A stretch of DNA of 64,000 nt from the NCBI RefSeq assembly GCF_031884435.1, contig NZ_CP134779.1, positions 5,084,001 to 5,148,000 on the forward strand, in the 5' to 3' direction. Origin of the DNA: Bosea sp. 685. GTDB lineage: Bacteria > Pseudomonadota > Alphaproteobacteria > Rhizobiales > Beijerinckiaceae. Positions 31,190 to 49,490 of this stretch are shown one piece after another. The notes below the pieces were generated by a model. The model was not told the DNA's origin and did no database searches. It worked only from the letters and a program-made list of their open reading frames with translations. Numbering within the stretch: the first letter of the stretch is position 1; each line of letters begins with the position of its first letter. Position numbers and translations under genes: made by a program.

Positions 31190-32004
31190 TCAGGCGCCGA
31201 CCTTGGCCAGCACATCGGCGCGCAGGAAGCGCTCGATGAACAGCATGAACAGCACGGAGGGAACGAGCAGGATCAGCGCCGTGATCGAGGCGACCTGATA
31301 ATTGCCGCCCATCGCCGCGTTGTAGAGCAGGAGCGGCAGCGTCGTGACCTGCGGCACGCCGACGAAGAAGGTGCCGGTGAACTCGTCGAGCGACTCCAGG
31401 AAGACGAAGATGCCGCTGGCGATGATGCCGGGCGCAGCCAAGGGCAGCGTTACCGTGAAGAAGGCGCGCAAGGGCGAGGCGCCGATATTGCGGGCGGCAA
31501 GTTCGAGATCCTTGTCGACCGCCGCGAAAGCCGCCGCCGCAATCCAGACGGAATAGACCAGGCCATGGGCGGCATGGACGAGAACGACGGCGAAGACCGT
31601 GCCGTTGATGCCGATCTGGTAGAACACCCGCGCGACATTGATGTAGATCGCGACCGAGGAAAAGCCTGCGGCAGCAGGAACATCACCATGAACAGCGCCC
31701 GCATCGGCAGCTTCAAGCGCGCCAGCGCATAGCCCGCCGGGATCGACAGAGCGAGCGCGACGACGACCGTCAGCACGGCGATCCAGACCGAGGTGCCGAG
31801 CGAGGCCATCGCGTCGCCGGTCGGGCGGAAGACCTGCTCCCAATAGCGCGTGCCATAGGTCACCGGCAGCTTGAACGGCGTGTACCAGCGCTCGGCGACC
31901 GACCAGAGCGCGAGATTGGCCAATGGGCCGATCAGCACGAAGGCGAAGGCGGCGAGCAGCGCGGCAGCAAGCGTCGCCCGGGCGGTCGAGGCGAGACGGA
32001 TCAT
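31190..32004 (-). pseudogene. PotC-like ABC permease interrupted by a frameshift
   Basis: From the ATG at 32004 a permease frame (LASTARATLAAALLAAFAFV, later MRALFMVMFLLPQA) runs to about 31660. Beyond that the permease sequence continues one frame over (SVAIYINVARVFYQIGING, AARNIGASPLRAFFTVTLPL) to 31190. Insertion of one base in GCTTTTCC would restore FPSVAIYIN, the expected wording. So a single-base deletion splits an otherwise normal ~270-residue permease. It may be a real mutation, which would disable this importer, or a sequencing error in the short T/C run. Confidence 0.85.
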
Positions 32005-32834
32005 GGCGCCGCCTCCTTCGACAGGCCGCGCTTGAGGTAGAGGATCGCGGCGCCTGCGCTGATCAGATAGGTGATGACGCCAAGCGCATTCGCCGTGGCG
32101 TAGTCACCGTAGGAGTTGATGCGGAAGGCCATGTCGACCGTCAGCATGGTCGGCTGCGAGCCCGCGACCATCATCGGCACGGAGAGCACCGAGAGCATCG
32201 TCACGAAGGACAGCACGAGCGCGACGAGCAGCGTCGGCATCACCTGCGGCAGCGCCAGCTCGATGAGCACGCGAACACGCGAGGCGCCGAGATTGCGGCC
32301 GGCCTCCAGCGTCGCCCGGTCGATCGAGGCAAGCGCGCCGGCGAGCAGCAGCGCGACGAAAGGGGTCTGCTTCCAGACGAAGGTCGCGATGATGCCGCGC
32401 CAGTCGAGATAGCTCACGGCGCTCAGCGGCTCCATCAAGCCTAGCGAGACGAAGGTGTTGTTCATCAGCCCGTTCTTGGCGAGGAAGGTGCGCATGCACT
32501 GCGCCGCGACGATGAAGGGGATGAAGAGCGGCCAGCGATAGAGCGCCTTGAGCGTGCCGACGATCCAGGGATTCTCGCCCAATGTCAGCGTGCCGGCGAT
32601 GACGATCGCGGCAAGCGCGGTCAGCCCGCAGGACGCCAGCACGATCACCACCGTAAAGACGATGTCGGTCGAATACAGCTCATAGGCCTTGGCGAACCAG
32701 TCCAGCGTCAGCGAGCCGTCCGGCTTGGTGAAGGCCGAGATCAGCGAGAAGCCGAGCGGGTAGAGAAACAGCGCAGCGACCAGGAGAAGGCCGGGCGCGA
32801 TGAGGATCAGCGCCAGTTGGCGTTGGGAGAGCAT
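32001..32834 (-). CDS. PotB-like ABC transporter permease
   Basis: A 277-residue inner-membrane permease with about six helices. The first is LILIAPGLLLVAALFLYPLG and the EAA loop is EAGRNLGASRVRVLIELALP. Its stop overlaps the start of the frameshifted partner permease by four bases (ATGA). It belongs to a four-gene importer operon running from 35175 to 31190. The family carries polyamines, ferric complexes, phosphonates or sugar phosphates. Location inside the inositol region and an IolR-type site before the operon suggest an inositol-derived substrate. Confidence 0.9.
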   Translation of the reverse strand: MLSQRQLALILIAPGLLLVAALFLYPLGFSLISAFTKPDGSLTLDWFAKAYELYSTDIVFTVVIVLASCGLTALAAIVIAGTLTLGENPWIVGTLKALYRWPLFIPFIVAAQCMRTFLAKNGLMNNTFVSLGLMEPLSAVSYLDWRGIIATFVWKQTPFVALLLAGALASIDRATLEAGRNLGASRVRVLIELALPQVMPTLLVALVLSFVTMLSVLSVPMMVAGSQPTMLTVDMAFRINSYGDYATANALGVITYLISAGAAILYLKRGLSKEAAP

Positions 32835-32899
32835 GGACAGGCGCCGATCGCGAGGACGGGCGGCCCGGCGTCAAGCCGGGCCGGTGGTGGACTCGACCG

Positions 32900-34030
32900 T
32901 CAGTTCGAGACCTTCTTCTCGTAGCCTTCGAGGATGTCGTTGAAGTAGGGCGCGATCGGGAAGGCCTTGGCGTTCTTCGAGAGGTCGCTCGGGGTGATGT
33001 CGGTGAAGAGCTTGTTCCAGGCCGCCTGGTCGAGCTTGCCCTCGAGGTTCTTGGCATCGATGCCCGGATACCAGTTGAACTTCTTGACGATGCCGTCCGC
33101 CTGCACCTGCGGGCTGGTGGCGAGCGCGATGAACTCCTCGGCGAGCTTGCGGTTGGCGGTCTTCTCCGGCACCGCATAATACATCGGCTGTCCCGGCATG
33201 CCCGGAGAAGCGAGCTTGAGCTTCATGTTCGGCGGCAGCTTGCCGTCGGCCTGCCAGGAATAGAACATGTCGACCCAGACCGGCCCCATCGCGATCTCGC
33301 CGCGGTTGAGCATGTCGAGCGTGCCGGCATTGCCCGGCGTGATGACGACCGACTTGTTGAACTCCTTGAGATCGGCGAGAGCGCCGTCCCAGGACGCCTT
33401 CACGGCCGGATCATAGGGGCCCTTGATCAGCTTGTCGGCGTCGCCGCCGAAGGCGTAGACCCAGCCGGCGACGAAGGCGACGCCGGACATGCCGCCCTTG
33501 ATGCCGTTATAGCCGAACTGCTTTGGGTTCTTCTTGGCCCAGTCGCGCAGCTCCACGAAGGTGTTCGGCGGGGATTTGAGCAGATCGGCATTATAGGCGA
33601 GCGCGGTCTGCGACTGGAACATCGGGATGACGAAGCCCGAGACGTCGGCGCCGAGCGCGTTCTTCGCGGATTCGCTGGAGACGAGTTTCGCCGTGTCGAC
33701 CTTGTCGGTGTATTTGGCGAGCAGGCCTTCCTTCACCATCGTGCCGGCGGCCTTCTGGTGGATGACGACGACATCGAAATCGGTCGTCGTCGCGCTCTTC
33801 TGCGCGTCGAGCTTCTCATAGATCTTCTGCGAGCCGGAATCGCCGGCGCCGGTACCGACGGAAACCACCTTCACGCCGGGATGGGACTTTTCGAACATCG
33901 GCCCGAGATAGTCCTTCACGTAGTCGACCATGTTCTGGTCGCCGGCAGTGGCGACGTTCAGGGTCTGGGCGGCGAGCGGTGATGCCGCCATCAGCGCCGC
34001 GAGCGAACAGGCAATGGAGAGGAAGCGCAT
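32900..34030 (-). CDS. ABC transporter substrate-binding protein (family 1)
   Basis: A 376-residue periplasmic binding protein with a signal peptide (MRFLSIACSLAALMAASPLA, cleavage after LAA). The mature protein starts QTLNVATAGDQNMVDYVKDY, and contains GDSGSQKIYEKLDAQK and FVIPMFQSQTALAYNADLLK. It is the specificity component of the importer encoded on both sides. The ligand cannot be read from sequence. The regulatory context (GGAA-N6-TTCC box before the ATPase gene) points to inositol or an inositol phosphate. Confidence 0.88.
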   Translation of the reverse strand: MRFLSIACSLAALMAASPLAAQTLNVATAGDQNMVDYVKDYLGPMFEKSHPGVKVVSVGTGAGDSGSQKIYEKLDAQKSATTTDFDVVVIHQKAAGTMVKEGLLAKYTDKVDTAKLVSSESAKNALGADVSGFVIPMFQSQTALAYNADLLKSPPNTFVELRDWAKKNPKQFGYNGIKGGMSGVAFVAGWVYAFGGDADKLIKGPYDPAVKASWDGALADLKEFNKSVVITPGNAGTLDMLNRGEIAMGPVWVDMFYSWQADGKLPPNMKLKLASPGMPGQPMYYAVPEKTANRKLAEEFIALATSPQVQADGIVKKFNWYPGIDAKNLEGKLDQAAWNKLFTDITPSDLSKNAKAFPIAPYFNDILEGYEKKVSN

Positions 34031-34059: not shown

Positions 34060-35175
34060 TCAGGCGGCGATCGTCCCGGCCTCGGATGCCGGGAAGATGT
34101 GGAGGCGCTGCAGCGGGATGCGCAGGCCAACTTTGGTTCCGAGTTCGTGGCGGTCGGCGTCGTCGACCGTGATCTGGCGGCCTGCCGCCTCGACCCGGTA
34201 GCGATAGACGCCGCCTGGATAGGCGCGCGCGGCGATCAGTCCCGGCACGATCAGATCGTCGACCGAGGTCGCGTCGCTGGCGTCAAGCCGCGCGACGTCG
34301 TCGCGAAAATAGGCGACAGCGTCACCGGCGGGCACAGTGTTGGACGGCCCCGCTGCGATGTGGGCAGTCGCGTCACCAGCACTGAGAGATGCGCCCTGCT
34401 CGGAGCGCTCGACGCGCAGCGGCAGGACGTTCTCGGCGCCCATGAAATTGGCGACGAAGGCGGTCGCCGGGTGGTCATAGACCTCCTCGGGCGTGCCGAC
34501 CTGCGCGATCCTGCCCGCCTGCATGATGACGAGCCGGTCGGCCATGGTCATGGCCTCCTCGCGATCATGCGTGACATGGACGGCGGTCAGGCCCAGACGC
34601 TGCTGGATCGCCCGGATCTCATGGCGCATCGTCATGCGGATCTTGGCGTCGAGATTGGATAATGGCTCGTCGAGCAGCAGGATGCCCGGATCGATGGCGA
34701 GCGCCCGGCCGAGCGCGACGCGCTGGCGCTGGCCGCCCGAGAGCGCCGTGACCTTGCGGCTCTCATAGCCGGCAAGGCCGAGGAATTCGAGCATGGCGGC
34801 GACCTTGGTCGCGATCTGCGCCTTCGAGGCGCCGCGCAGCTTCAAGCCGTAGCCGATGTTCTGCAGCACGGTCATATGCGGCCATAGCGCATAGGACTGG
34901 AACACCATCGCCATGCCGCGCTTCTCCGGTGGCAGCGCGGCGACATCCTTGCCGCCGACGATGATCGAGCCGGATTCGACCGGCACGAAGCCGCTCAGCG
35001 AGCGCAAAAGCGTGGTCTTGCCGCAGCCCGACGAGCCGAGGAGCGCGGTGAAGCTGCCGGGCGTGAAATCGAGGCTGACGCCGTGCAGCACCCGCGTGCC
35101 GCCATAGGCGACGTGAAGGTCGCGCACGGCGATGGCCGCGCCGCTTTGCGGCCCGTGCTGCAATTCCGTTGGCAA
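34060..35175 (-). CDS. ABC transporter ATP-binding protein (PotA/FbpC type)
   Basis: A 371-residue ATPase with Walker A LGSSGCGKTTLL, signature LSGGQRQRVALGRAL, Walker B ILLLDEPLSNLD and switch VTHDREEAM, plus a C-terminal TOBE-like domain. The start is most likely the TTG at 35175, with AAGGGAG upstream and just before the conserved N-terminal beta strand. A much longer open frame reaching beyond 35600 runs over the operator and the divergent gene and is not credible. It is the first gene of the importer operon. The IolR-type palindrome lies 38 bases upstream of the start. Confidence 0.85.
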   Translation of the reverse strand: MPTELQHGPQSGAAIAVRDLHVAYGGTRVLHGVSLDFTPGSFTALLGSSGCGKTTLLRSLSGFVPVESGSIIVGGKDVAALPPEKRGMAMVFQSYALWPHMTVLQNIGYGLKLRGASKAQIATKVAAMLEFLGLAGYESRKVTALSGGQRQRVALGRALAIDPGILLLDEPLSNLDAKIRMTMRHEIRAIQQRLGLTAVHVTHDREEAMTMADRLVIMQAGRIAQVGTPEEVYDHPATAFVANFMGAENVLPLRVERSEQGASLSAGDATAHIAAGPSNTVPAGDAVAYFRDDVARLDASDATSVDDLIVPGLIAARAYPGGVYRYRVEAAGRQITVDDADRHELGTKVGLRIPLQRLHIFPASEAGTIAA

Positions 35176-35212: not shown

Positions 35213-35230
35213 TTGGAACGTCTCTTCCAA
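35213..35230. promoter_or_regulatory. Candidate IolR operator TTGGAACGTCTCTTCCAA
   Basis: A perfect TTGGAA-N6-TTCCAA palindrome containing GGAA-N6-TTCC, the motif bound by the RpiR-family IolR of Sinorhizobium meliloti. It lies between the divergent importer operon (start 35175) and the 2H phosphoesterase gene (start 35299). A degenerate half site (GGAATAAATATAAC) follows near 35243. Confidence 0.7.
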
Positions 35231-35298
35231 TTTCTGATACGCTTGGAATAAATATAACGCCCGTCTCCGGCCGTGTGCAATAGGTTTGTGAACCTCTG

Positions 35299-35821: not shown

Positions 35822-36886
35822 TCAGCCCGGCGGGATCAGCGTCACGCCCGAATTCGCGAAGCTGAGCTTCACCGGCGCGCCCTCGGCCAGCATCGGGCGG
35901 GCGCCGTACTGCACCACGAAGAGATCGGCGGCCTCGGTCTGGACGATGATGTCGAGGTGGTTGCCGAGATAGGTGCATTTGCGGATCGTGCCGGGCAGCC
36001 CCTCGCCCGTCGCCTCCGACAGGATCAGGCTCTCCGGCCGTACCGCGATCCGGGCCGGCCCCGGCCCAAGCCCACGCGCCGGCAAGGAGACGCTGGCCGA
36101 GCCGATCGCGACATCGGCGCGCCCCGCCGCGACGGAGCGGATCGTCACGTCGATCAGATTGGCGTCGCCGATGAAATCGGCGACGAAGGCATTGGCCGGC
36201 TCCTCATAGAGTTCGCGCGGCGCGCCTTCCTGCGCGATGCGCGAATTCGACATCACGATGATGCGGTCGGAAACGGCAAGCGCCTCCTCCTGATCATGGG
36301 TGACATAGGCGACCGTCAGGTTGAGACTCTGCTGCAATTCGCGGATCTCCTCGCGGACCCGGCGGCGCAGTTTCGCGTCGAGATTGGAGAGCGGCTCGTC
36401 GAAGAGCAGCACCTGCGGCTCCAGCACCAATGCGCGCGCCACCGCGACGCGCTGCTGCTGCCCGCCGGAGAGCTCGGACGGATAGCGGTTCTCGAAACCT
36501 TTCAGGCCGACAAGTGCAAGCTTCGACAGCGCCATCTCGCGTGCCACATCCTTGCCCAGCCCCTTCACGGTCGGGCCATAGGCGGCATTCTCCAGCACGC
36601 TCATATGCGGAAACAGCGCATAGGATTGGAACACCATGCTGACGTCGCGATCGGCGGCCGAAAGCCGCGTCACATCCTTGCCGCCGATCAGGATCTGACC
36701 GGCGCTGGCGATCTCGAGCCCGGCGATCATGCGTAGCGTCGTGGTCTTGCCGCAGCCGGAGGGGCCGAGCAGGGTGACGAGCTTGCCGGCCTCGATGGCG
36801 AAGCTGACATCGTCGACGGCCGTCACCGCGCCATAGCGCATGCTGACATTGCGGAACTCGACGGATGCGGGGCCGGCCTTCGTCAA
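35822..36886 (-). CDS. ABC transporter ATP-binding protein (AfuC/FbpC type)
   Basis: A 354-residue ATPase. Walker A is LGPSGCGKTTTL, signature [15 protein letters not shown], Walker B VLLFDEPLSNLD and switch VTHDQEEAL. The C-terminal ~110 residues form a TOBE-like domain. The start overlaps the stop of the double-length permease gene (ATGA at 36883-36886). With that permease and the binding protein at 39142 it forms a ferric/sugar-phosphate-type (FbpABC/AfuABC) importer. The operon also encodes an inositol monophosphatase and IolG. Confidence 0.9.
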   Translation of the reverse strand: MTKAGPASVEFRNVSMRYGAVTAVDDVSFAIEAGKLVTLLGPSGCGKTTTLRMIAGLEIASAGQILIGGKDVTRLSAADRDVSMVFQSYALFPHMSVLENAAYGPTVKGLGKDVAREMALSKLALVGLKGFENRYPSELSGGQQQRVAVARALVLEPQVLLFDEPLSNLDAKLRRRVREEIRELQQSLNLTVAYVTHDQEEALAVSDRIIVMSNSRIAQEGAPRELYEEPANAFVADFIGDANLIDVTIRSVAAGRADVAIGSASVSLPARGLGPGPARIAVRPESLILSEATGEGLPGTIRKCTYLGNHLDIIVQTEAADLFVVQYGARPMLAEGAPVKLSFANSGVTLIPPG

Positions 36887-39111
36887 CTTGCTGCTCCTTG
36901 ACTGATGGGATCGGAGACCGAGCCGGAGAGTGCGACGACCTTGTGCCGGCCGACTTTGCGCCGGCCGAGCTTGCGTTCGCCGACGCCGAGCTGGATCAGC
37001 CCGATGCCGGCGGCCATGACCACGATCAGCACCGAGGAATAGGCGATGGCGAGGCCAAACTCACCGGCCTCGACCCGGCCGACGATATAGGCGGTGGCAA
37101 GGTTGTACTCGGCCGAGACCAGGAAGATCACCGCGCTGACGGCGGTCATGCTGCGTACGAAGCTGTAGACCAGCGCCGCAACCAGCGCCGGGCGAAGCAG
37201 CGGCAGCACGACGCGCCAGAGCGTGGTGAAGCTGCGGGCGCGCAGCGTCGTCGAGGCCTCGTCCAGGCTCTTGTCGATCTGCGACAGGCCCGCGATGCCC
37301 GAGCGCACGCCGACCGGCATGTTGCGGAAGACAAAGGCGATGATCAGGATCAGCCCGGTGCCGGTGATCTCGATCGGCGGCACGTTGAAGGCCAGGATAT
37401 AGGCGACGCCGAGCACCGTGCCGGGAATGGCGAAGGAGAGCATCGTCGCGAATTCCAGGGTGCCGCGCCCGCTGAATTTCTGCCGCGTCAGCAGATAGGC
37501 GGTGAGCAGGCCGATCAGCGCCGTCAGCGGCGCCGAGATCGCCGCGACCTTCAGCGTCGTGAAGAAGGAGTTCCAGGCCGCGCCCTCGAAGAAGATCCCG
37601 CGACTGAAATCGATCGCGAAGCCGGTGCGGTAATGCTCCAGCGTCGGCGTGTAGTCGCGGCCCATCGTCTTGACGAAGCCGCCAACGAGGATGACGAGAT
37701 AGATCACCAGCGTGAGCGCCACCCAGGGCGCGACGGCCAGCCCCGCAAGCCAGGTCACCCGGCGCGGCAACGGCGTCGGCAGGCCGGCATCGCCCTTGCC
37801 CGTCACGGTCGTGTAGGATTTGCCGCCGAGCCAGCCCTGCTGCAGCCAGAAGGCGCCGAGCGTGAAGGCAAGCAGCACCATGGCGAGCACCGCCGCCTGG
37901 CCCTGATTATAGGCCGCGCCGACGACAGCAAAGAAGATCTTGGTCGAGAGCACCTCGAAATTGCCGCCAAGCACCAGCGGATTGCCGAAATCGGCCATGC
38001 TCTCGACAAAGCCGAGCAGGAAAGCGTTGGCGATGCCGGGTCGCAGCAATGGCCAGGTCACAGTCGAGAAGGTCTGCCAGCGGCCGGCCCCCAATGTCTG
38101 CGACGCCTCCTCCAGGCTCGGGCTGATGCCCTGGACCACGCCGATCAGGACGAGGAAGGCGATCGGCGCGAAGGCGAGAACCTGCGCCAGCAGCACGCCG
38201 GGCAAACCGTAGATCCAACGCGAGCGCGGAATCCCGAACCAGTCCGCCATGATCCCGGTGAAGAAGCCGGAACGGCCGAAGAGCAGGATCAGCGCGAGCC
38301 CGATCACGAAGGGCGGCGTGATGATCGGCAGCACCGTCAGCGCCCGCATCAGGCGCTTGCCGGGCATCGCCGTGCGCTGGAGCAGCAGCGCGCAGGCAAG
38401 ACCGAGCAGGGTCGTGATCACCCCGGTCAGCACGGCCAGGATCAGCGTGTTCCAGGCAACGCCGCAACTGGTGCCGCCGGAGACGCAGCCGAGCCCCCAG
38501 ATCGTGGCGCTGAAGAACCTGTCGGAGAAGGCCGAGAGCGCGACATGGCCGTTCTGATCGACCAGCGCGCTCTTCAGGATGACCATGACGGGCCAGAAGA
38601 TGAACAGCCCGATCAGCAAGACGACGATGCCGATGGCCGAGGTGGTGAACAGGTCGCCCCGGCAATAGCCGCGATAGGCCAGGCCATGGCAGGTCAGGAG
38701 CAGCAGCGAGAGCACCGTCAGGAAGGCGCCGCCGCCCATGCCGCCCTGCGCGACGTCCGCGCCGAACAATGCCGTGGCCCAGCCGGCGGCCGAGCCCTTG
38801 AGGACAATGCCGAAGCCCTGCAGGAAGAACACCGCTAGCCCCGCAGCGCCGGCCACGACGAGGACACGCGCCACCTTGCCGGAATCAGCGCCGCGGCAGA
38901 ACGCCGTTGCCACCAGGAGGGCCGCCCCGATCGGCAGCAGCCAGGGCGCTTCCCCGGACAAAGCGAGCGCGAGCGCGCTGCCCGCCTTGCCGAGCGGATA
39001 GCCGGAGAGCCAGCCGAACTGCACCAGGCTCATGCCCTCGGGCAGATACCAGGGCAGCGCGGCATAGCCGAGCCAGCCGATCAGGAGCACGAGTTGCGTG
39101 GCGCGGCGCAT
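36883..39111 (-). CDS. Double-domain ABC permease (AfuB/FbpB type)
   Basis: A 742-residue permease made of two permease halves fused head to tail. The EAA-type loops are LEEASQTLGAGRWQTFSTVT in the first half and DEASTTLRARSFTTLWRVVL in the second. About fifteen or more hydrophobic segments are visible, including four near the N-terminus before the first domain. This fused layout is typical of FbpB/AfuB-type permeases of ferric or sugar-phosphate importers. It is 30 bases after the binding-protein gene and overlaps the ATPase start by four bases. Confidence 0.9.
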   Translation of the reverse strand: MRRATQLVLLIGWLGYAALPWYLPEGMSLVQFGWLSGYPLGKAGSALALALSGEAPWLLPIGAALLVATAFCRGADSGKVARVLVVAGAAGLAVFFLQGFGIVLKGSAAGWATALFGADVAQGGMGGGAFLTVLSLLLLTCHGLAYRGYCRGDLFTTSAIGIVVLLIGLFIFWPVMVILKSALVDQNGHVALSAFSDRFFSATIWGLGCVSGGTSCGVAWNTLILAVLTGVITTLLGLACALLLQRTAMPGKRLMRALTVLPIITPPFVIGLALILLFGRSGFFTGIMADWFGIPRSRWIYGLPGVLLAQVLAFAPIAFLVLIGVVQGISPSLEEASQTLGAGRWQTFSTVTWPLLRPGIANAFLLGFVESMADFGNPLVLGGNFEVLSTKIFFAVVGAAYNQGQAAVLAMVLLAFTLGAFWLQQGWLGGKSYTTVTGKGDAGLPTPLPRRVTWLAGLAVAPWVALTLVIYLVILVGGFVKTMGRDYTPTLEHYRTGFAIDFSRGIFFEGAAWNSFFTTLKVAAISAPLTALIGLLTAYLLTRQKFSGRGTLEFATMLSFAIPGTVLGVAYILAFNVPPIEITGTGLILIIAFVFRNMPVGVRSGIAGLSQIDKSLDEASTTLRARSFTTLWRVVLPLLRPALVAALVYSFVRSMTAVSAVIFLVSAEYNLATAYIVGRVEAGEFGLAIAYSSVLIVVMAAGIGLIQLGVGERKLGRRKVGRHKVVALSGSVSDPISQGAAS

Positions 39112-40182: not shown

Positions 40183-40198
40183 GGTCGTCCTCCCTGGT

Positions 40199-40213
40199 CG
40201 AACGTTTCGTTCG
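40199..40213. promoter_or_regulatory. Perfect dyad CGAACG-TTT-CGTTCG before the binding-protein gene
   Basis: Two perfectly inverted 6-bp arms separated by TTT lie 17-31 bases upstream of the start at 40182, in the 93-bp gap after the phosphatase gene. It could be an operator for an internal promoter or a small hairpin setting binding-protein mRNA levels. It does not match the IolR motif. Confidence 0.5.
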
Positions 40214-40275
40214 TTGTTTTGTCGTTGGCTAAACTCTGACGGCTTTCGCGCAAAGATCAACGGATCAGTTGCTGG

Positions 40276-41064: not shown

Positions 41065-42068
41065 TTCGCCTCCAGCGCGACAGTGACAGGCTTGCCCGTG
41101 CGCGCCGACTCCGTGGCGGCATCGGCCAGGATCTGCGCCTTGAGGCCGTCGAGACCCGACGGCCTTGCCGCCGTTCCGCCCCGGCAGGCAGCGATGAAGG
41201 CCTCGAGCTCGGCGCGATAGGCGGCAGCATAGCGCTCGAGGAAGAAGTTCTGCACCGGGTCGGCACGGAAGCCGGCAACGGTCGCACTCTCGACCGTGGT
41301 CTCGTGGATATTGCCGGCGCGCAGCATGCCCTTGGAGCCATGCACCTCGATGCGCTGATCATAGCCATAGGTGGCGCGCCGAGAATTCGAGATCTGCGCG
41401 ATCCGCCCCGAGGCGGTCTTCATCAGCACGGCAGCGGTGTCGACGTCGCCGGCCTGTCCGATCGCCGGATCGACCAGCGCCGAGCCCAGCGCGAAAACCT
41501 CGACCGGCTCCTCGGCCAGGAGGAAGCGGGCCATGTCGAAATCATGGATCATCATGTCGCGGAACAGCCCGCCCGAACGAGAGACATACTCGACCGGCGG
41601 CGGCGAGGGATCGCGCGAGATCACGCTGACGATCTCGATCGCGCCGGCCTCGCCTGCGCGCAGGCGGCGTTCGAGCGCTGCGAAGCTGGGGTCGAAGCGG
41701 CGGTTGAAGCCGATCATCAAGGGCTTGCCGGTCTGAGCGACGACCTTCAGGCAGCGGCGGATGCGCTGCGCATCGAGATCGACCGGCTTCTCGCAGAATA
41801 CCGCCTTGCCGGCCGAGACGGCCGCTTCGATGAGATCGGCATGGGTGTCGGTCGGCGTGCAGATCAGAATGGCGTCGATGCTGGCATCGGCCAAAATGGC
41901 GTCGATGCCGGCAACATGCGCGCCCGTCACCGCCGCCAGCGCGGAGGCCGCCTCGTTCGAGGCATCGGCGACCGCGACCAACGCGGCATCGGCCCGCGCG
42001 GCGACGTTCAGCCCGTGAATGCGGCCGATCCGCCCGGCGCCCAGCAATCCAAATCGCATTGTCGTCAT
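41061..42068 (-). CDS. iolG: myo-Inositol 2-dehydrogenase (Gfo/Idh/MocA family)
   Basis: A 335-residue NAD(P)-dependent oxidoreductase. The N-terminal Rossmann motif is GLLGAGRIGRIHGLNVA. The catalytic Lys lies in CEKPVDL, and the inositol-dehydrogenase block GGLFRDMMIHDFDMARFLL supplies the Asp/His catalytic pair. It oxidises myo-inositol to 2-keto-myo-inositol, the first Iol step. The gene belongs to the leftward operon (SDR, iolG, phosphatase, importer) that diverges from iolR-iolCDEB. Other inositol isomers are possible substrates. Confidence 0.9.
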   Translation of the reverse strand: MTTMRFGLLGAGRIGRIHGLNVAARADAALVAVADASNEAASALAAVTGAHVAGIDAILADASIDAILICTPTDTHADLIEAAVSAGKAVFCEKPVDLDAQRIRRCLKVVAQTGKPLMIGFNRRFDPSFAALERRLRAGEAGAIEIVSVISRDPSPPPVEYVSRSGGLFRDMMIHDFDMARFLLAEEPVEVFALGSALVDPAIGQAGDVDTAAVLMKTASGRIAQISNSRRATYGYDQRIEVHGSKGMLRAGNIHETTVESATVAGFRADPVQNFFLERYAAAYRAELEAFIAACRGGTAARPSGLDGLKAQILADAATESARTGKPVTVALEAN

Positions 42069-42123: not shown

Positions 42124-42924
42124 TCAGTCGTGCGCTCCAAGAATCGTCTGGTCGAAATCGATGTTGGAGCCGGTCATCAGGCCCGATTCGCCCGACGCCA
42201 GATAGGCCACCGCCTTGGCGACTTCGCGCGGATCGATCAACCGGCCGAAGGGCTGCCCGCTTGCCGCCTTGTCGAGCCAGCCATCCCTTGCATCGTGGCG
42301 CAGCCGCATGATCGCGTCCTCGCCCGGTGTCGCCATCCAGCCGATATTGAGGCCGTTGACCCGGATGCGCTGCTCAAGCAGGCCGAAGGCGGCGTTCTTG
42401 GTCAAAGCGGCGAGCGCCGCCTTGGAAACGCTGTAGGCGGAGAGGAAAGGCTGACCGCCATGAGCCGACATCGACTGGATGTTGACGATCGCGCCTTCGA
42501 TACCGAGCCGTGCCATCGCCTCCGCCGCCCGCTGGATCAGGAAGAACGGTGCGCGCAGATTCACCGCCATGATGCGCTCATAGAGCTCGGGCGTCGTGTC
42601 GAGGATCGTGCCGCGATCGGTGTCGCCTGCGGCATTGACCAGGATGTCGATGCGCCCGAAGGCGGCCTCGGCTGCCGGCACGATCGCCTTCACCGCGTCG
42701 AGATCGGCGAGATCAGCCTCATGAAAACGGACATCGCAGGCCGCGCCACGCAGCGACGCCGCCACGGCTTCGCCGCGCACCCGGTTGCGGCCGGTCAGCA
42801 GCAGGCCGGCGATGCCGCGCGCCGCGAATTCGCGCGCAATTGCCTCGCCCAGCCCCTGGCTGGCACCGGTCATGATGGCGACCTTGCCCGTCAGATCCCT
42901 GCTGAAGGCATCACGGTTGGGCAC
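42124..42924 (-). CDS. Short-chain dehydrogenase/reductase
   Basis: A 266-residue classical SDR. The cofactor motif is [16 protein letters not shown], the NNAG equivalent is LVNAAGD, and the catalytic Ser-Tyr-Lys are in NIQSMSAHG and AYSVSKAAL. It is the first gene of the leftward operon and starts 60 bases from the IolR-type operator. In an iol setting it may oxidise another inositol isomer or reduce a keto-inositol, but its substrate is not evident. It has no membrane or signal segment and has the usual length. Confidence 0.85.
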
Positions 42925-42984: not shown

Positions 42985-42998
42985 GGAATAAACATTCC
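42985..42998. promoter_or_regulatory. Candidate IolR operator GGAATAAACATTCC
   Basis: GGAA-N6-TTCC with matching inner A/T bases lies in the 119-bp gap between the leftward SDR-iolG-phosphatase-importer operon and rightward iolR-iolCDEB. It matches the described IolR consensus and one position would control both operons and iolR itself. The second copy is at 35213. Confidence 0.75.
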
Positions 42999-43043: not shown

Positions 43044-43907
43044 ATGCCAGCCGAGCCACAGCCAGCCTCGCCGATCAAGGATTTTGACGGCTTCGTCGCG
43101 CTGCTGCGCCAGCGCCGACCGATGCTGCCGAAACGCCTGAAGCAGGTCGCCGACCACGCCCTCGCCCATCTCGACGATATGGCCTTCGGCTCGACGGCTC
43201 AGATCGCCGAACGCGCCGGCGTGCAGGCCTCGACCCTGGTGCGCTTCGCCCAGGCTCTCGACTATTCCGGCTTCAGCGAGATGCAGGAGGTCTTCCGCTC
43301 GCGCCTGCGTCGCCAGGTCGTCGACCATCGCGAGCGGCTGGCGGCGCTGCGCGGCACGCAAGCGGCGACAGGCGGTGCCGTGGCGCTACTGGAGGGCTTC
43401 GTCCATGCCAGCGAAACCTCGCTGACGCAGGTCAAGGCCGCGATCCGGCCTGCCGATCTCGAAGCCGCCGTGACCCTGCTGGCCGGAGCCCGGACGATCG
43501 TTCTGGTCGGCGCCAGACGCATGTTCCCGGTCGTCTCCTATCTCGCCTACGCCTTCGGCAAGCTCGGCATCCGCGCCGTGCTGGTCGACAATGTCGCGGG
43601 GCTGGGGCCCGAGCAGGCGGCGATCGCCGGTCCCGGCGACGTCGTGCTCGCGGTGAGCTACGCTCCCTATGCCGCCATGACCGTCGAGATCGCAGCAGCC
43701 GCGCATCAGCGCGGCGTGCCCGTGCTCGCCCTGACCGATAGCGCGCTCAGCCCGCTGGCCGAAAATTGCCGCCTCTGGCTCGAGGTCGCCGAGGCCGATT
43801 ACGGCGCCTTCCGCTCGGTCGCCGCGACCTTCGCGGTGGCGATGACGCTGGCCGTCGCGACCGCCGAGAAATCCGGCCTCTCGGCCGACCCAGACCTCGA
43901 TCGATAG
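43044..43907 (+). CDS. iolR: RpiR-family regulator, IolR
   Basis: A 287-residue RpiR regulator. The N-terminal helix-turn-helix (MAFGSTAQIAERAGVQASTL, VRFAQALDYSGFSEMQEVFR) is followed by a SIS sugar-phosphate-binding domain (about 125-270) with IVLVGARRMFPVVSYLAYAF and VVLAVSYAPYAAMTVEIAAA. In rhizobia IolR represses inositol genes and is released by a phosphorylated Iol intermediate. The gene is 15 bases ahead of iolC, and the GGAA-N6-TTCC site lies 46 bases upstream. Autoregulation and control of both divergent operons is the likely scheme. Confidence 0.88.
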   Translation: MPAEPQPASPIKDFDGFVALLRQRRPMLPKRLKQVADHALAHLDDMAFGSTAQIAERAGVQASTLVRFAQALDYSGFSEMQEVFRSRLRRQVVDHRERLAALRGTQAATGGAVALLEGFVHASETSLTQVKAAIRPADLEAAVTLLAGARTIVLVGARRMFPVVSYLAYAFGKLGIRAVLVDNVAGLGPEQAAIAGPGDVVLAVSYAPYAAMTVEIAAAAHQRGVPVLALTDSALSPLAENCRLWLEVAEADYGAFRSVAATFAVAMTLAVATAEKSGLSADPDLDR

Positions 43908-43922: not shown

Positions 43923-45836
43923 ATGCCGACAGCCGCTTCCGACACGACGCTCGACGTCATCGCCATCGGCCGCTCCTCGGTCGATCTCTACGGCCAGCAG
44001 ATCGGCGGCCGGCTGGAGGATATGGGGACCTTCGTCAAGGCTGTCGGCGGCTGCCCGACCAATATCGCCATCGGCACGGCCCGGCTCGGGCTGAAATCGG
44101 CGGTGATCACCCGCGTCGGCGACGAGCAGATGGGCCGCTTCATCCTCGAGCAGCTCGAACGCGAAGGCGTCGAGACGAAAGGTGTCGTCACCGATCCCAA
44201 GCGCCTGACCGCGCTGGTGATCCTGGGCGTGCGCGACGAGAAGACCTTTCCGCTGATCTTCTATCGCAGCGACTGCGCCGATGCGGCCCTGCATGAGAGC
44301 GAGATCAATGAGGCCTTCATCGCCTCGGCCAAGGCGATCGTCGTGACGGGAACGCATTTTGCCATTCCCGACGCCGCCGCCGCGCAGAAAAAGGCGATCC
44401 GCTTCGCCCGCAAGCATGGCCGCAAGGTCGTGTTCGATGTCGATTACCGGCCCAATCTCTGGGGCCTGGCAGGCCATGCCGCCGGCGAGGAACGCTATGT
44501 CCGTTCCGACACTGTGACGCGACACCTGCAGGAGATCCTGCCGGACTGCGACCTGATCGTCGGTACCGAAGAGGAGCTCCACGCCGCCGGCGGCTCCGAG
44601 GATACGCTCACCGCGATCCGCACGATCCGCAGCTTGAGCACTGCGACCATCGTCTGCAAGCGCGGGCCGATGGGCTGCGTGGTCTTCACTGGCGCGATCC
44701 CCGCCTCGATCGAGGACGGCATCAAGGGGCCGGGCTTCCCTGTCGAGGTCTATAATGTGCTGGGCGCCGGCGATGCCTTCATGTCCGGCTTCCTGCGCGG
44801 CTTTCTGCGGGATGAACCGATCGAGACCTGTTGCGCCTGGGCCAATGCCTGCGGCGCCTTCGCGGTCTCGCGACTGCTCTGCTCGCCGGAAAGCCCGACC
44901 TTCCCCGAGCTGCAATATTTCCTGAAGCACGGCTCGCAGCATCGCGCGCTGCGCCACGACGTCGAGATCAACCACATCCATTGGGCGACGACGCGCCGTC
45001 CCCAACCCGCCGGTATCATGGCGCTCGCCATCGACCATCGCGCCCAGCTGGAGGACATGGCCGACGCCGTGGGCGCACCGCGCGCACGCATCGCCGCCTT
45101 CAAGACGCTCGCGGTCGCTGCCGCCGCGCGTGTCGCGGCCGGGCGGCCCGGTTTCGGCATGCTGATCGACGGCAAACATGGCCGCGAAGCGCTGTTCCGG
45201 GCCGGCGACCACGGTTTCTGGATCGCGCGCCCGCTCGAACTGCCCGGCTCGCGACCGTTGGAGCTCGAGACGGACGCGACCGGCTCTTTGGGGGCGACGC
45301 TGGCGGAATGGCCGGTGGATCACATCGCCAAATGCCTGTGCTTCTACCACCCGGACGACCCCGCCGAGCTCAAGGCCGTGCAGGAGGCCGTGCTGAAGCG
45401 CGTCGCGCTGGCCTGCCGGCAGGTCGAGCGCGAATTGCTGGTCGAGATCATCGCCTCCAAGCACGGCCCGCTGCATGACGACGCCACGGCGCAAGTGATG
45501 GAACGGCTCTATGCCATCGGCATCCGGCCCGATTGGTGGAAGCTGGAAACCCAGCCCTCGCCTGCCGCCTGGCAAGCGATCGACGGCGTGATCGCGACGC
45601 ACGATCCCTATTGCCGCGGCGTATTGCTGCTCGGGCTCGACGCGCCGGAGGAGACGATCAAGCAGGCCTTCCGGGGCTCGCGCGAGGCGGCCTCGGTCAA
45701 GGGCTTCGCGGTCGGGCGCACCATCTTCGGCGAGGTGGCGCGTGCATGGCTTTCGGGCGCGATCGACGATGAGGTCGCGACGACACGGATGGCGCAAAAT
45801 TTCGGCACCTTGGTCGCAGCCTGGGAAAGCCGGTGA
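43923..45836 (+). CDS. iolC: IolC: 5-dehydro-2-deoxygluconokinase fused to a DUF2090 aldolase-like domain
   Basis: A 637-residue bifunctional protein. Residues about 8-320 are a PfkB-type kinase (start LDVIAIGRSSVDLYG, catalytic NVLGAGDAFMSGFLRGF). Residues about 345-630 are a DUF2090 barrel (IMALAIDHRAQLEDMAD, LIDGKHGREALF, later VKGFAVGRTIF), related to the IolJ/LacD-type aldolases. It would phosphorylate 2-deoxy-5-keto-gluconate and probably split the product into dihydroxyacetone phosphate and malonic semialdehyde. This fused form is common in Proteobacteria and explains the absence of a separate iolJ. It precedes iolD by 11 bases. Confidence 0.92.
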   Translation: MPTAASDTTLDVIAIGRSSVDLYGQQIGGRLEDMGTFVKAVGGCPTNIAIGTARLGLKSAVITRVGDEQMGRFILEQLEREGVETKGVVTDPKRLTALVILGVRDEKTFPLIFYRSDCADAALHESEINEAFIASAKAIVVTGTHFAIPDAAAAQKKAIRFARKHGRKVVFDVDYRPNLWGLAGHAAGEERYVRSDTVTRHLQEILPDCDLIVGTEEELHAAGGSEDTLTAIRTIRSLSTATIVCKRGPMGCVVFTGAIPASIEDGIKGPGFPVEVYNVLGAGDAFMSGFLRGFLRDEPIETCCAWANACGAFAVSRLLCSPESPTFPELQYFLKHGSQHRALRHDVEINHIHWATTRRPQPAGIMALAIDHRAQLEDMADAVGAPRARIAAFKTLAVAAAARVAAGRPGFGMLIDGKHGREALFRAGDHGFWIARPLELPGSRPLELETDATGSLGATLAEWPVDHIAKCLCFYHPDDPAELKAVQEAVLKRVALACRQVERELLVEIIASKHGPLHDDATAQVMERLYAIGIRPDWWKLETQPSPAAWQAIDGVIATHDPYCRGVLLLGLDAPEETIKQAFRGSREAASVKGFAVGRTIFGEVARAWLSGAIDDEVATTRMAQNFGTLVAAWESR

Positions 45837-45847
45837 GGAGACAGCCG

Positions 45848-47686
45848 ATGGCCACGATCAGGCTCACCATGGCGCAGGCGCTGGTCAAGGCGCTCGCCGC
45901 GCAGAAGACTGTGATCAATGGGCAGACCTTGCCGCTCTTCGCCGGTGTCTGGGCGATCTTCGGCCACGGCAATGTCGCGGGCCTCGGCGAGGCGCTCCAT
46001 GGCGCGCGCGACACGTTGCCGACCTTCCGCGCCCATAACGAACAGGCGATGGCCCATGCCGCGATCGCCTTCGCCAAGGCCTCGCGGCGGCGCCGGATGA
46101 TGGCGGTCACGAGCTCGATCGGCCCCGGCGCGACCAATATGGTCACCGCCGCCGCGGTCGCCCATGTCAACCGCCTGCCGCTGCTGCTCCTGCCGGGCGA
46201 TGTCTTCGCCGGGCGCCGGCCCGACCCAGTGCTGCAGCAGATCGAGGATTTCGGCGACGGCACCGTCTCGGCCAATGACTGCTTCAAGCCGGTCTCGCGC
46301 TATTTCGACCGATTGACCCGGCCCGAGCAATTGATACCGGCCTTCGAGCGCGCCATGGCGGTTCTCACCGATCCAGCCGAATGCGGCCCGGTGACGCTTT
46401 GCCTGTGCCAGGATGTCCAGGCCGAGGCCTTTGATTATCCCGAAAGCTTCTTCGCCGAGCGCATCTGGACGCCGCGCCGCCAGCGGCCGGACGAGGCCGA
46501 GCTGGCTGAAGCGGCCGCGCTGCTCAAGGCCGCTCAAAAGCCCTTCGTCGTGGTCGGTGGCGGCGTGCTCTATGGCGAGGCGGAGGCCGAACTCGCCCGC
46601 TTCTGCGAGGCGCATGGGCTGCCGGCCGCCGAGACGCAGGCCGGCAAGAGCGCCCTGCCCTTCGACCATCGGCTCAATCTCGGCGCGATCGGTGTCACCG
46701 GGACAGGGGCGGCCAATGCCATGGCGGGAGAGGCCGATGTCGTGCTCGCCATCGGTACGCGCCTGCAGGACTTCACCACCGGCTCCTGGTCGCTCTTCGC
46801 CAACCCCGCTTGTCGCATCATCGGGCTGAACGTGCAGGCCTTCGACGCCGGCAAGCAGCGCGCCCAGCCGCTCGTCTGCGATGCCCGCGCCGGGCTCGCC
46901 GAGCTCGGTGCGACACTTGCAGGCCACCGCGCCCCCGATGCCTGGACGGCGCAGGCAAAGGCGGCGAAGACCGACTGGCTCACAACCGCCGCGCATTACA
47001 CCGCCGCCGGCAACGCAGCGCTCCCAAGCGATGCGCAGGTCCTCGGCGCCGTACAGCGCTGGAGCAAGCCCTCCGATATTGTCGTCTGTGCCGCCGGCGG
47101 CTTGCCGGGCGAGCTGCACAAGCTCTGGCAGGCCGGCGCGCCCGGCGGCTACCATATGGAATATGGCTATTCCTGCATGGGCTACGAGATCGCTGGCGGG
47201 CTCGGCGTCAAGATGGCCGACCCCGCCCGCGAGGTCGTCGTCATGCTCGGCGACGGCTCCTATCTGATGATGAACTCCGAGATCGCGACCTCGGTGATGC
47301 TGGGGCTGAAGCTCACCATCGTCGTGCTCGATAATCGCGGGTTTGGCTGCATCAACCGGCTGCAGAACGCGACCGGCGGCGCTCCGTTCAACAATCTCCT
47401 GGCCGACAGCCGCCACGAGACGCTGCCAGCGATCGATTTCACTGCCCACGCCGCCTCGCTCGGTGCGGTCTCGCGCAAAGTGGCAAGCCTTGCCGAACTC
47501 GATGAGGCGCTACGCGAGAGCAGGGCACATGACCGCACCAGCGTCGTCGTGATCGACACCGACCCGATGATCTCGACCGATGCCGGCGGGCATTGGTGGG
47601 ATGTCGCGGTGCCCGAGATTTCGACGCGGCCTGAGGTAGCCCAAGCCCGCAAACGCTATGACGACGCGCTCAAAGCGCGGCCATGA
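45848..47686 (+). CDS. iolD: IolD: 3D-(3,5/4)-trihydroxycyclohexane-1,2-dione hydrolase
   Basis: A 612-residue thiamine-diphosphate enzyme. Catalytic Glu lies in RAHNEQAMAHAAIAFAKA, the ThDP motif is GDGSYLMMNSEIATSVMLGL ending at VVLDN, and the N-terminal block LPLFAGVWAIFGHGNVAGLG is typical of IolD. It opens the inositol ring, hydrolysing the cyclic dione to 5-deoxy-glucuronate. The ATG at 45848 is chosen because GAGGAG stands 8 bases upstream. An in-frame GTG at 45833 overlapping iolC is less likely. iolE follows after a 90-bp gap that contains a small repeat. Confidence 0.92.
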   Translation: MATIRLTMAQALVKALAAQKTVINGQTLPLFAGVWAIFGHGNVAGLGEALHGARDTLPTFRAHNEQAMAHAAIAFAKASRRRRMMAVTSSIGPGATNMVTAAAVAHVNRLPLLLLPGDVFAGRRPDPVLQQIEDFGDGTVSANDCFKPVSRYFDRLTRPEQLIPAFERAMAVLTDPAECGPVTLCLCQDVQAEAFDYPESFFAERIWTPRRQRPDEAELAEAAALLKAAQKPFVVVGGGVLYGEAEAELARFCEAHGLPAAETQAGKSALPFDHRLNLGAIGVTGTGAANAMAGEADVVLAIGTRLQDFTTGSWSLFANPACRIIGLNVQAFDAGKQRAQPLVCDARAGLAELGATLAGHRAPDAWTAQAKAAKTDWLTTAAHYTAAGNAALPSDAQVLGAVQRWSKPSDIVVCAAGGLPGELHKLWQAGAPGGYHMEYGYSCMGYEIAGGLGVKMADPAREVVVMLGDGSYLMMNSEIATSVMLGLKLTIVVLDNRGFGCINRLQNATGGAPFNNLLADSRHETLPAIDFTAHAASLGAVSRKVASLAELDEALRESRAHDRTSVVVIDTDPMISTDAGGHWWDVAVPEISTRPEVAQARKRYDDALKARP

Positions 47687-47727: not shown

Positions 47728-47776
47728 GGGAACCGTGCCTCTCTCTGATCACCTCGCAGATTACGGAACCAACGAC

Positions 47777-48676
47777 ATGCCTATCCGCATCGGCGCCAAC
47801 CCCATCGGCTGGTCGAATGACGACCTGCAGGAGATCGGCGGCGCGACCTCGCTCGAGACCTGCCTGGATGAGGCCCGCGAGGCCGGTTTTGAGGGCATGG
47901 AACTCGGCCATAAATTCCCGCGCGAACCCGCAGCCCTCAAGGCCGCGCTCGCCCCCTTCGGCATGGCCTGCATCTCGGGCTGGTACTCTGCCGAATTGCT
48001 GCTGCGCGATGCCGATGAAGAGATGGCTCATCTGCGGCCGCATCTCGATCTGCTCAAGGCGATGGGCTCGAATGTCCTGGTCTTCGCCGAGACCTCGAAC
48101 GCGATCCATGGCGACCGCGGCAAGCCGCTCTCGCAGCGGCCGGTGCTGGCAGCGGGCGACTGGGCTGAGTTCGGCCGGCGGATCACCGAGGTCGCCGAGC
48201 GCACCCTCGCTGAGGGCGTCCGGCTGGTCTACCACCATCATATGGGCACGATCGTCGAAAGCGAGGCCGATATCGACGCCTTCATGGCAGCAACCGGCGA
48301 GGCCGTGCATCTCCTGCTCGACACCGGCCATGCAAGCTGGGGCGGGGCCGACCCTGCGGCGCTCGCCGCGCGCTATCGCGACCGGATCAGCCATGTCCAT
48401 GCCAAGGATGTGCGCAAAGGCGTGATGGAGCAGGCCGGGGCCGGCGACTGGAGCTTCCTCGATGCAGTCCTCGGCCAGGGCAGCGACCTCGGCGTCTACA
48501 CGGTGCCTGGCGACGGCATGGTCAATTATCCCGCCGTCTTCCGCGCCCTGCCCGGCTATTCCGGCTGGGTCGTGGTCGAGGCCGAGCAAGACCCTGAGAA
48601 GGCCCATCCCCTGACCTATGCCAAGCGGGGCGTCGCCCATCTGAGGCTGAGCCTGAAGGAGGCCGGGCTCGCCTGA
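47777..48676 (+). CDS. iolE: IolE: inosose dehydratase
   Basis: A 299-residue TIM-barrel protein of the AP-endonuclease-2-like family. It starts MPIRIGANPIGWSNDDLQEI and contains EAGFEGMELGHKFPREP, RLVYHHHMGTIVESEADID and HLLLDTGHASWGGADPAAL with the metal-binding His and Glu residues. It dehydrates 2-keto-myo-inositol to the cyclohexane-trione. The ATG at 47777 gives the family start. An upstream in-frame extension to 47735 runs into the repeat. It lies between iolD and iolB in the conserved order. Confidence 0.92.
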   Translation: MPIRIGANPIGWSNDDLQEIGGATSLETCLDEAREAGFEGMELGHKFPREPAALKAALAPFGMACISGWYSAELLLRDADEEMAHLRPHLDLLKAMGSNVLVFAETSNAIHGDRGKPLSQRPVLAAGDWAEFGRRITEVAERTLAEGVRLVYHHHMGTIVESEADIDAFMAATGEAVHLLLDTGHASWGGADPAALAARYRDRISHVHAKDVRKGVMEQAGAGDWSFLDAVLGQGSDLGVYTVPGDGMVNYPAVFRALPGYSGWVVVEAEQDPEKAHPLTYAKRGVAHLRLSLKEAGLA

Positions 48677-48689
48677 GCCGGAGCACATC

Positions 48690-49490
48690 ATGTCGAAACT
48701 GCTCGTCAAACCCGCCGCCCCCGATACCGAGGGCCGCATCCACAACGTCACGCCGGCATCGGCCGGCTGGGACCATGTCGGCTTCGAGGTCTACAAGCTC
48801 GCCGACGGCCAGAGCCTGGCGAAGGAGACGGGCGATCGCGAGATCTGCATCGTCCTGCTCGCGGGCAAGGTCGCGGCCAGCGCGGGCGGCACGGAGTTCG
48901 GCACGATCGGCGGGCGCAATTCCCCCTTCGAACCCGACCCCTGGTCGCTTTATGTGCCGGCCGGAACCTCCTGGAGCGTCACGGCTGAAGGCGCCTGCGA
49001 AGTGGCGGTGTGCTCGGCCCCGGGCAAGCCGCGGCTCAAACCACGCGTCATCGCACCCCGGGATGTCGGCTGCCTGACGCGCGGCCAGGGCACCAACACC
49101 CGCCATGTCCGCAACATCCTGCCGGAGACCGAGCCTGCCGAAAGCCTGCTCGTGGTCGAGGTGATCACGCCCTCGGGCTCTTGGTCGAGCTATCCGCCGC
49201 ACAAGCACGACCGGGACGCGCTGCCGCGGGAATCGCTGCTGGAGGAGACCTATTACCACCGCCTCTCGCCACCGCAGGGTTTCGCCCTCCAGCGCGTCTA
49301 CACCGACGACCGCTCGCTCGACGAGACGCTCGCGGCCGAAGACGGCGATGTCGTGCTGGTGCCCAGAGGGTATCATCCGGTCGCCGCGCCGCATGGCTAC
49401 GAGCTGTATTATCTCAACGTCATGGCGGGGCCGAAGCGGGTCTGGAAATTCGCCAACGACCCCGCCCATGAATGGATGCTGGAAAGCTAA
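48690..49490 (+). CDS. iolB: IolB: 5-deoxy-glucuronate isomerase
   Basis: A 266-residue bicupin isomerase. Blocks include HVTPASAGWDHVGFEVYKL with small differences, PSGSWSSYPPHKHDRDALPR (metal His pair), LLEETYYHRLSPPQGFALQR and VPRGYHPVAAPHGYELYYL. It converts 5-deoxy-glucuronate to 2-deoxy-5-keto-gluconate, the IolC substrate. It ends the rightward iolR-C-D-E-B operon 13 bases after iolE. No iolA (methylmalonate-semialdehyde dehydrogenase) is present nearby, so malonic semialdehyde must be handled by a gene elsewhere. Confidence 0.92.
   Translation: MSKLLVKPAAPDTEGRIHNVTPASAGWDHVGFEVYKLADGQSLAKETGDREICIVLLAGKVAASAGGTEFGTIGGRNSPFEPDPWSLYVPAGTSWSVTAEGACEVAVCSAPGKPRLKPRVIAPRDVGCLTRGQGTNTRHVRNILPETEPAESLLVVEVITPSGSWSSYPPHKHDRDALPRESLLEETYYHRLSPPQGFALQRVYTDDRSLDETLAAEDGDVVLVPRGYHPVAAPHGYELYYLNVMAGPKRVWKFANDPAHEWMLES

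Follow-up and report, generated by a model that had tools for sequence, protein, structure and literature searches.

A candidate IolR-controlled locus for the uptake and catabolism of inositol phosphates in Bosea sp. 685

Here, we describe a locus of Bosea sp. 685 which we read as a system for eating inositol phosphates under the control of the regulator IolR. It lies in a stretch of 64,000 nucleotides (the window; contig NZ_CP134779.1, positions 5,084,001 to 5,148,000) of a 6.8-Mb genome in two contigs, and combines an AfuABC-like importer, an enzyme of the inositol monophosphatase family (IMPase) and the Iol enzymes with a second importer and a 2H phosphoesterase that would add a phosphodiester. 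Gene content and order, conserved operators, binding and catalytic motifs and recurrent linkage all point to this reading, to which we give a probability of roughly 0.64; the ligands and the direction of flow are predicted from the sequence. Import of inositol monophosphate by AfuABC is likely, whereas import of a cyclic phosphate by the second importer is speculative, and the second importer and its 2H enzyme have a weaker part in this reading than AfuABC.

In the proposed pathway, AfuABC would import inositol monophosphate from the periplasm and the cytoplasmic IMPase would strip its phosphate. IolG, with an SDR oxidoreductase possibly serving another oxidation or isomer step, would then hand the inositol to IolE, IolD, IolB and IolC with its fused DUF2090 aldolase for degradation. 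The second importer, which has a similar operator, would probably bring in a phosphodiester form, the simplest being myo-inositol 1,2-cyclic phosphate, and the 2H enzyme would open this cyclic phosphate to a monophosphate for the same IMPase. An earlier note on this DNA had proposed that an inositol phosphate is imported whole, dephosphorylated inside and fed to the Iol chain; operon order, operators, linkage, pocket residues and the lack of a synthase support this at the sequence level.

The core of the locus consists of two divergent operons (Table 1). Leftward from 42924 run the SDR gene, iolG, IMPase, an AfuA-like binding protein, a two-domain permease and an ATPase; rightward from 43044 run iolR, iolC-DUF2090, iolD, iolE and iolB. 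Curated-model scores confirm that both gene sets and the second importer, all of them named in the earlier note, are present. Indeed, iolG, iolE, iolD, iolB and iolC with its aldolase all exceed the curated cut-offs, which places them in the iol pathway, and iolG is the sole TIGR04380 match above cut-off in a search of the genome. The IMPase scores over the PF00459 cut-off, carries the GEE, DPIDGT and WD motifs, which we take to be the metal-site motifs of its family, and has inositol-1-monophosphatases/SuhB as its top PDB relatives; against the NCBIfam inositol-1-monophosphatase equivalog it reaches 123 bits, below the cut-off of 332. Hydrolysis inside the cell after import fits the locus, because signal peptides, judged by eye, are seen on both binding proteins and none is obvious on the IMPase or the 2H enzyme.

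What would AfuABC carry? Among solved proteins, its binding protein comes closest to AfuA (311 bits), followed by another AfuA-like protein (305) and by P5PA (260), which binds pyridoxal phosphate. AfuA, the closest characterised relative, binds glucose 6-phosphate, fructose 6-phosphate and sedoheptulose 7-phosphate; it no longer binds its ligand with the substitutions H205A, D206A and E229A, and binds it more weakly with S37A and T150A (PMC4546632, in part). Using the pocket contacts listed in PMC8427247 (in part), we found the essential sugar-coordinating H205, D206 and E229 kept as H258, D259 and E282 in the window protein, the counterparts of Y103 and Q269 likewise kept, and six of the seven phosphate contacts (G38, T60, S148, G149, T150, G185) retained. 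The pocket differs from that of Actinobacillus pleuropneumoniae AfuA by S9G, T11Q, G36S, S37A and I186A. P5PA has no counterparts of D206 and E229; as both are kept here, a polyol phosphate is a better guess for the ligand than pyridoxal phosphate, iron or a polyamine. Elsewhere (L252-L257, the neighbours of L253 left aside, L268, L269 and L277; L and G numbers are our labels for loci and genomes), two or three AfuA-like genes occur per AfuBC locus, and their pocket letters differ.

The arrangement is conserved within the genus. Among 25 genomes, the window's own included, AfuA occurs at 72% identity or more in 22, at 69% in G019 and at 60% in G015; G011 gave no AfuA at E 1e-50 and is the only genome missing iolD, which is present in 24 of the 25. 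We read the AfuA neighbourhood in 17 of the 21 other carriers (AfuA at least 72% identical), and the order SDR-iolG-IMPase-AfuA-AfuB-AfuC is kept in every one of them. A similar iolRCDEB lies adjacent in nine (G001, G003, G004, G007, G008, G013, G014, G017 and G020). In the other eight (G006, G009, G010, G012, G016, G018, G023 and G024) the operon stands away from iolCDEB, and a different iolRCDEB is found at another place, its iolC, iolD, iolE and iolB being 61-75% alike and its iolR 48-50%. The genus holds two versions of iolRCDEB (L093-L099 and L102-L104, versus window 43044-49490), which are 61-75% alike (iolR 48-52%), one per genome, and in the loci read only one version adjoins AfuABC. 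The AfuA matches in G007:C75 (L020) and G009:C2 are reported with in-frame stops.

The palindrome GGAA-N6-TTCC is the published IolR motif of Caulobacter (PMC2597717, in part). The window holds it at 42985, between SDR and iolR, and at 35215, between the second importer and the 2H gene, so that it is found at both divergent promoters, as the earlier note had claimed, and the operator of the alphaproteobacterial IolR regulon does occur at the iol promoters. A third copy lies at 996-1009, distant from the iol genes. Three or more hits appeared in 3 of 100 shuffled windows, and the 16-bp form TGGAA-N6-TTCCA, a count which includes the site at 35214 and excludes that at 42985 (it ends in G), has four sites genome-wide versus five for a reversed control, i.e. 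no excess. We therefore rejected the palindrome alone as evidence, and the motif has weight solely through its conservation in these promoters.

This conservation is extensive. Upstream of SDR the exact palindrome is present in 16 of the 17 congeners (11 of 12 loci, and G020, G008, G001, G007 and G023), the exception, L052, having one letter changed. It is also kept in all eight operons unlinked from iolCDEB, so that AfuABC-IMPase is linked to inositol by more than chance proximity, and we infer that the operon is under the control of IolR itself. In the 2H/ATPase promoter the exact palindrome is found in the window, G020, G008, G001, L149, L155, L158 and L236; L150 has it in an ATPase/IMPase promoter, L154 has it there with one letter changed, and L189 has none there. 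In most of these promoters the palindrome stands next to another copy, degenerate and of the type CTTGGAATAAACATAACG.

Beyond the genus, the gene set named in the earlier note recurs in part, and the linkage of IMPase to AfuABC exceeds that in controls. A scan that started from IMPase, and is a biased set for that reason, gave 80 named loci, with AfuA within 2 kb in 52, iolG within 2 kb in 54 and some of iolC, iolD, iolE or iolB in 36; six showed none of these, although in one of them, L216, AfuABC immediately precedes IMPase, AfuA itself being more than 2 kb away. Apart from Bosea and Bradyrhizobium, AfuA-IMPase loci are found in Chelatococcus, Roseomonas, Microvirga, Alsobacter and Burkholderiales bins, among others. 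A sample of the class was searched with AfuA alone, which was found in 29 of 385 genomes, our own included, and one region was read in each of the 28 others. IMPase (at least 100 bits) was present in 16 of these 28 regions versus none of 20 control windows (P 2e-5), iolD, iolE or iolB in 7 versus none (P 0.03) and any of iolC, iolD, iolE or iolB in 8 versus 1 (P 0.06), the control windows having been selected by size of contig and 14 of the 20 lying in genomes that are also in the AfuA sample. When the threshold was relaxed and the limit set at 8 kb, IMPase was found in 17 of the 28 regions, and within 2 kb in 13. One of the 16, L277, has a weak IMPase (128 bits) near a distant third relative of AfuA. 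On an AfuA tree of 67 rows, partly picked via IMPase and with some loci cut by contig ends, iol linkage requires 13 changes, a number which indicates scatter only. On a Roseomonas gilardii plasmid, iolB, iolE, iolC, an RpiR-type regulator and iolG adjoin AfuABC, IMPase and a histidine-type phosphatase (PF00328), whose gene (L302:13204-14439) directly follows AfuABC-IMPase. The PF00328 superfamily includes phytases.

Where would the inositol phosphate come from? Inositol-phosphate synthase, searched for as its known family only (NAD_binding_5, PF07994), was found in none of eight genomes, the window's included, in a search whose control rang in 5 of 14 genomes, 3 of them over cut-off. If the cell has no synthase and yet keeps an IMPase in its inositol operon, it would have to obtain inositol phosphate from outside, and on these grounds a biosynthetic IMPase was rejected. 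The earlier note had also claimed that the sugar-type IbpA importer is absent. Caulobacter IbpA, which we take to be the protein of PDB entry 4irx, was not the top match in a comparison with solved structures that covered the six strongest of the 12 Peripla_BP_4 stretches of the genome.

We turn to the second importer. The 2H phosphoesterase that the earlier note placed near it is indeed there, with its gene moved to the plus-strand open reading frame (ORF) 35299-35808, the ORF 34060-35634 being the ATPase of the second importer with a true start probably near 35172 (370 of 370 residues are matched in L088, L089 and L092). The 2H gene lies between the two importers, divergent from the second and convergent with AfuC. 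HLT at residue 39 and HVS at residue 112 of the enzyme form the two H-x-[ST] motifs that we take to be the hallmark of the 2H superfamily, the test with PF07823/PF13563 gave a match over cut-off, and in the PDB it matches, up to E 1, solely the cyclic phosphodiesterase (CPDase) 1fsi, at 38 bits. Among solved structures the second binding protein has distant relatives only. A 2H profile of seven rows, including our own and L236/G229, found the enzyme in 12 of 397 genomes of the order. Ten of these loci lie outside the profile, and in eight of them (L291-L298, but not the two most distant, L299 and L300) the 2H gene adjoins the second importer, as it does in the profile row L236.

In other loci the second importer stands beside a metallo-beta-lactamase-fold enzyme (L247, L248, L304, L307) or a calcineurin-like phosphoesterase (L294, L295, L306), and IMPase adjoins it in L246, L248, L297, L298, L307, L308, L189, L150 and L154, the last three having been fetched via the IMPase scan and being no independent evidence of IMPase linkage. 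LacI-type regulators are present in many of these loci. Eighteen plasmid records carry the second binding protein, and among the five opened (L304-L308) four hold an enzyme with one of the three phosphodiesterase-like folds, and IMPase is present in two. A listed inositol or phosphodiesterase partner occurs in 5 of 15 second-importer regions of the class sample (L236, L237, L246, L247, L248). The occurrence of three unrelated phosphodiesterase-like folds and IMPase beside one importer family suggests that the substrate of the family is a cyclic or diester polyol phosphate. For the Bosea importer a phosphodiester, perhaps inositol 1,2-cyclic phosphate, is plausible; the cyclic phosphate would be the simplest candidate in Bosea and Bradyrhizobium because of the iol and IMPase-AfuABC neighbours and the IolR-like sites. 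Myo-inositol 1,2-cyclic phosphate is a product of phosphatidylinositol-cleaving phospholipases. We hold as rather doubtful a fuller, two-branch pathway in these two genera, in which AfuABC would take up monophosphates, the second importer the 1,2-cyclic phosphate and the 2H enzyme would open its ring, one IMPase and one IolR serving both branches, and in which the second importer would be the first member of a wider family of cyclic or diester polyol-phosphate importers, each with a phosphodiesterase fold recruited by its host (2H, metallo-beta-lactamase-like or calcineurin-like).

Several observations weigh against an inositol-phosphate system. The top-scoring model for the IMPase is the histidinol-phosphatase HisN (152 bits, cut-off 275), and IMPase-family enzymes can be promiscuous. 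In the pocket, the phosphate-side Ser37 of AfuA is Ala in the window protein, a Ser standing one position earlier, and the signature at positions 11, 36 and 186 (Q11, S36, A/S186) did not separate significantly the regions with IMPase within 6 kb (12 of 17 versus 10 of 24, P 0.11; this table excludes L277's weak IMPase); with a 2-kb limit chosen afterwards and kinship uncorrected, the same signature gave 11 of 17 versus 0 of 24 (P 4e-6). Twelve of the 28 AfuA regions of the class sample have no IMPase that reaches the threshold, plasmids of Sinorhizobium meliloti and Pantoea carry AfuABC-IMPase beside a LacI-type regulator with no iol genes in the stretch shown, the 69% AfuA of G019 (L055) has AfuB and AfuC without an adjoining IMPase or iolG, and the 60% relatives read (L056-L059) are without iol genes or IMPase. 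No histidine acid phosphatase (PF00328) was found in this genome, the control ringing in 2 of 14 genomes, and the donor of inositol monophosphates would thus probably be another organism or another enzyme family. As for the second importer, 10 of the 15 class-sample regions are without the listed partners (two of the 10 on contigs below 10 kb), and Pfam scans of some neighbours of these regions indicated no common pathway. Near the start of the 2H gene, the palindrome is missing from the 2H loci of other families (L291-L298). Finally, the frameshift in the last permease (31190-32004), both halves of which are in one frame in all five relatives examined (L088, L089, L092, L150, L236), means either that this branch is broken in this strain or that the assembly is in error.

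The chance is close to even that the substrate of the second importer and the 2H enzyme is an unrelated phosphodiester, such as a cyclic nucleotide or a glycerophosphodiester, and that the two merely lie beside the iol locus. Elsewhere the unit does occur without iol genes or palindrome, frequently in the company of LacI regulators and other phosphodiesterase-like enzymes, and the 10 partnerless regions are in keeping with this. However, the unit stands beside AfuC in the window, L140 and L141, beside iolB in L149 and L158, and beside an iolC-like fragment and IMPase-AfuABC in L155; the 2H/ATPase promoter of these loci, and of the unlinked L236, carries IolR-type palindromes, and the IMPase neighbours given above likewise speak against an unrelated substrate.

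It is improbable, in our view, that AfuABC is a general importer of hexose and heptose phosphates and the IMPase a broad phosphatase, with the iol genes as loosely linked neighbours. This would agree with the three sugar phosphates bound by the closest characterised relative (PMC4546632, in part) and with the occurrence of AfuABC-IMPase without iol genes, but all 17 congeners read have iolG within the operon, each of the eight unlinked operons retains the IolR-type site, and pocket positions 9, 11, 36, 37 and 186 are unlike those of A. pleuropneumoniae AfuA. Import by AfuABC of free inositol or of an unphosphorylated derivative, with a biosynthetic IMPase, would supply the other inositol route that may be needed, IbpA not being the top solved match of any of the six strong candidates. 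It is nevertheless very improbable: AfuA and two AfuA-like proteins are the solved structures nearest to the binding protein, and the ligands of AfuA and P5PA are phosphorylated; the phosphate contacts T60, S148, G149, T150 and G185 are retained; and the synthase was found in none of eight genomes.

Compared with known systems, the inositol-phosphate locus of Bosea shares with AfuABC of Actinobacillus and Citrobacter (Sit et al. 2015, PMC4546632, in part) the binding-protein family, the counterparts of H205, D206 and E229 and the three-gene importer; it differs at the five pocket positions, and its importer sits in an iolG-IMPase operon under an IolR-type site. Like the iol module of Caulobacter and Sinorhizobium (Boutte et al. 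2008, PMC2597717, in part), it has an RpiR-type IolR, iol genes, an inositol dehydrogenase and GGAA-N6-TTCC operators, but at the locus itself an organophosphate-type importer and a phosphatase replace the sugar-type inositol importer IbpA-IatA-IatP. Its iolC is fused to DUF2090, a proposed aldolase, as in the IolC-DUF2090 pathway of the 2022 GapMind paper (PMC9007349, in part), whereas the phosphate front end present in Bosea is not described in the portion of that paper available. The 2H enzyme shares both HxT/HxS motifs and the PF07823 match with CPDase 1fsi and the 2H superfamily; it differs in that the match to 1fsi reaches 38 bits only and in that this enzyme, of putative function, is linked to an ABC importer. 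Inositol phosphates have been guessed by Boutte et al. as the cargo of a different, HlyB-family transporter (PMC2597717, in part). Among the matches listed in the open-access literature (titles and opening abstracts), there was no gene set like this one and no bacterial inositol-phosphate importer tied to iol. The protein families are all known; their combination and its regulation appear undescribed in the literature searched.

Phytate and its breakdown products form a large organic-phosphorus store in soil, and the usual picture is that dephosphorylation takes place outside the cell and inositol enters afterwards. If our reading is true, a dedicated inositol-phosphate importer would alter this picture, carbon and phosphorus being gained in one step. 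AfuABC stands next to IMPase in other Alphaproteobacteria and in some Betaproteobacteria, and many transporters labelled as iron importers could be re-annotated. The locus offers two candidate binding proteins, one phosphatase and one 2H enzyme open to testing.

Table 1. Features of the Bosea locus (window positions; cut-offs are those of the models named)
Feature	Position	Strand	Support
Second importer, last permease, frameshifted in this assembly	31190..32004	-	Split over two frames
Second importer, permease	32001..32834	-	PF00528
Second importer, binding protein (SBP_bac_8)	32900..34030	-	Family match
Second importer, ATPase (start near 35172 chosen)	34060..35172	-	PF00005
2H/ATPase divergent promoter: palindrome TGGAACGTCTCTTCCA, then degenerate copy CTTGGAATAAATATAACG	35214..35270		Counterparts in Bosea, Bradyrhizobium, L236
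2H (cyclic) phosphoesterase, 169 residues	35299..35808	+	PF07823 37.5 bits, cut-off 21
AfuC-like ATPase with TOBE domain	35822..36886	-	Family-model matches
AfuB-like permease, 742 residues, two permease domains in one chain	36883..39111	-	PF00528 twice
AfuA-like periplasmic binding protein	39142..40260	-	Best PDB match AfuA 4r72, 311 bits
IMPase, inositol monophosphatase family enzyme	40276..41064	-	PF00459 193 bits
iolG, myo-inositol 2-dehydrogenase	41061..42068	-	TIGR04380 440 bits, cut-off 355
SDR oxidoreductase (PRK06198 subfamily), first gene of leftward operon	42124..42924	-	NF004847 379 bits, cut-off 240
IolR-type palindrome GGAATAAACATTCC between SDR and iolR	42985..42998		Motif scan of window
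iolR, RpiR-family regulator with SIS domain	43044..43907	+	PF01418, PF01380
iolC-DUF2090, 5-dehydro-2-deoxygluconokinase fused to proposed aldolase	43923..45836	+	NF047869 724 bits, cut-off 600; DUF2090 405 bits
iolD	45833..47686	+	TIGR04377 943 bits, cut-off 715
iolE	47735..48676	+	TIGR04379 373 bits, cut-off 290
iolB	48690..49490	+	TIGR04378 351 bits, cut-off 205

Downstream of the second importer, window 22874-30919 holds a leftward cluster with a PF06684 protein, an alpha/beta hydrolase with a flavin reductase, a luciferase-like monooxygenase, an aldehyde dehydrogenase and another SBP_bac_8 importer, which looks like a separate oxidative catabolic pathway. We rejected the view that the second importer is part of this flanking oxidoreductase cluster only, as it adjoins iolB in L149 and L158, on the opposite side of the iol genes. 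The conjugative Escherichia coli plasmid pEGY2 (L307) carries an importer of the second type with IMPase and the metallo-beta-lactamase-fold enzyme, and relatives of its binding protein occur in Klebsiella pneumoniae records (hits H47 and H51). In L294 and L295 the second importer, a LacI regulator, the 2H gene and the calcineurin-like phosphoesterase lie beside a UgpC-like/UgpB-like importer, perhaps as a glycerophosphodiester locus.

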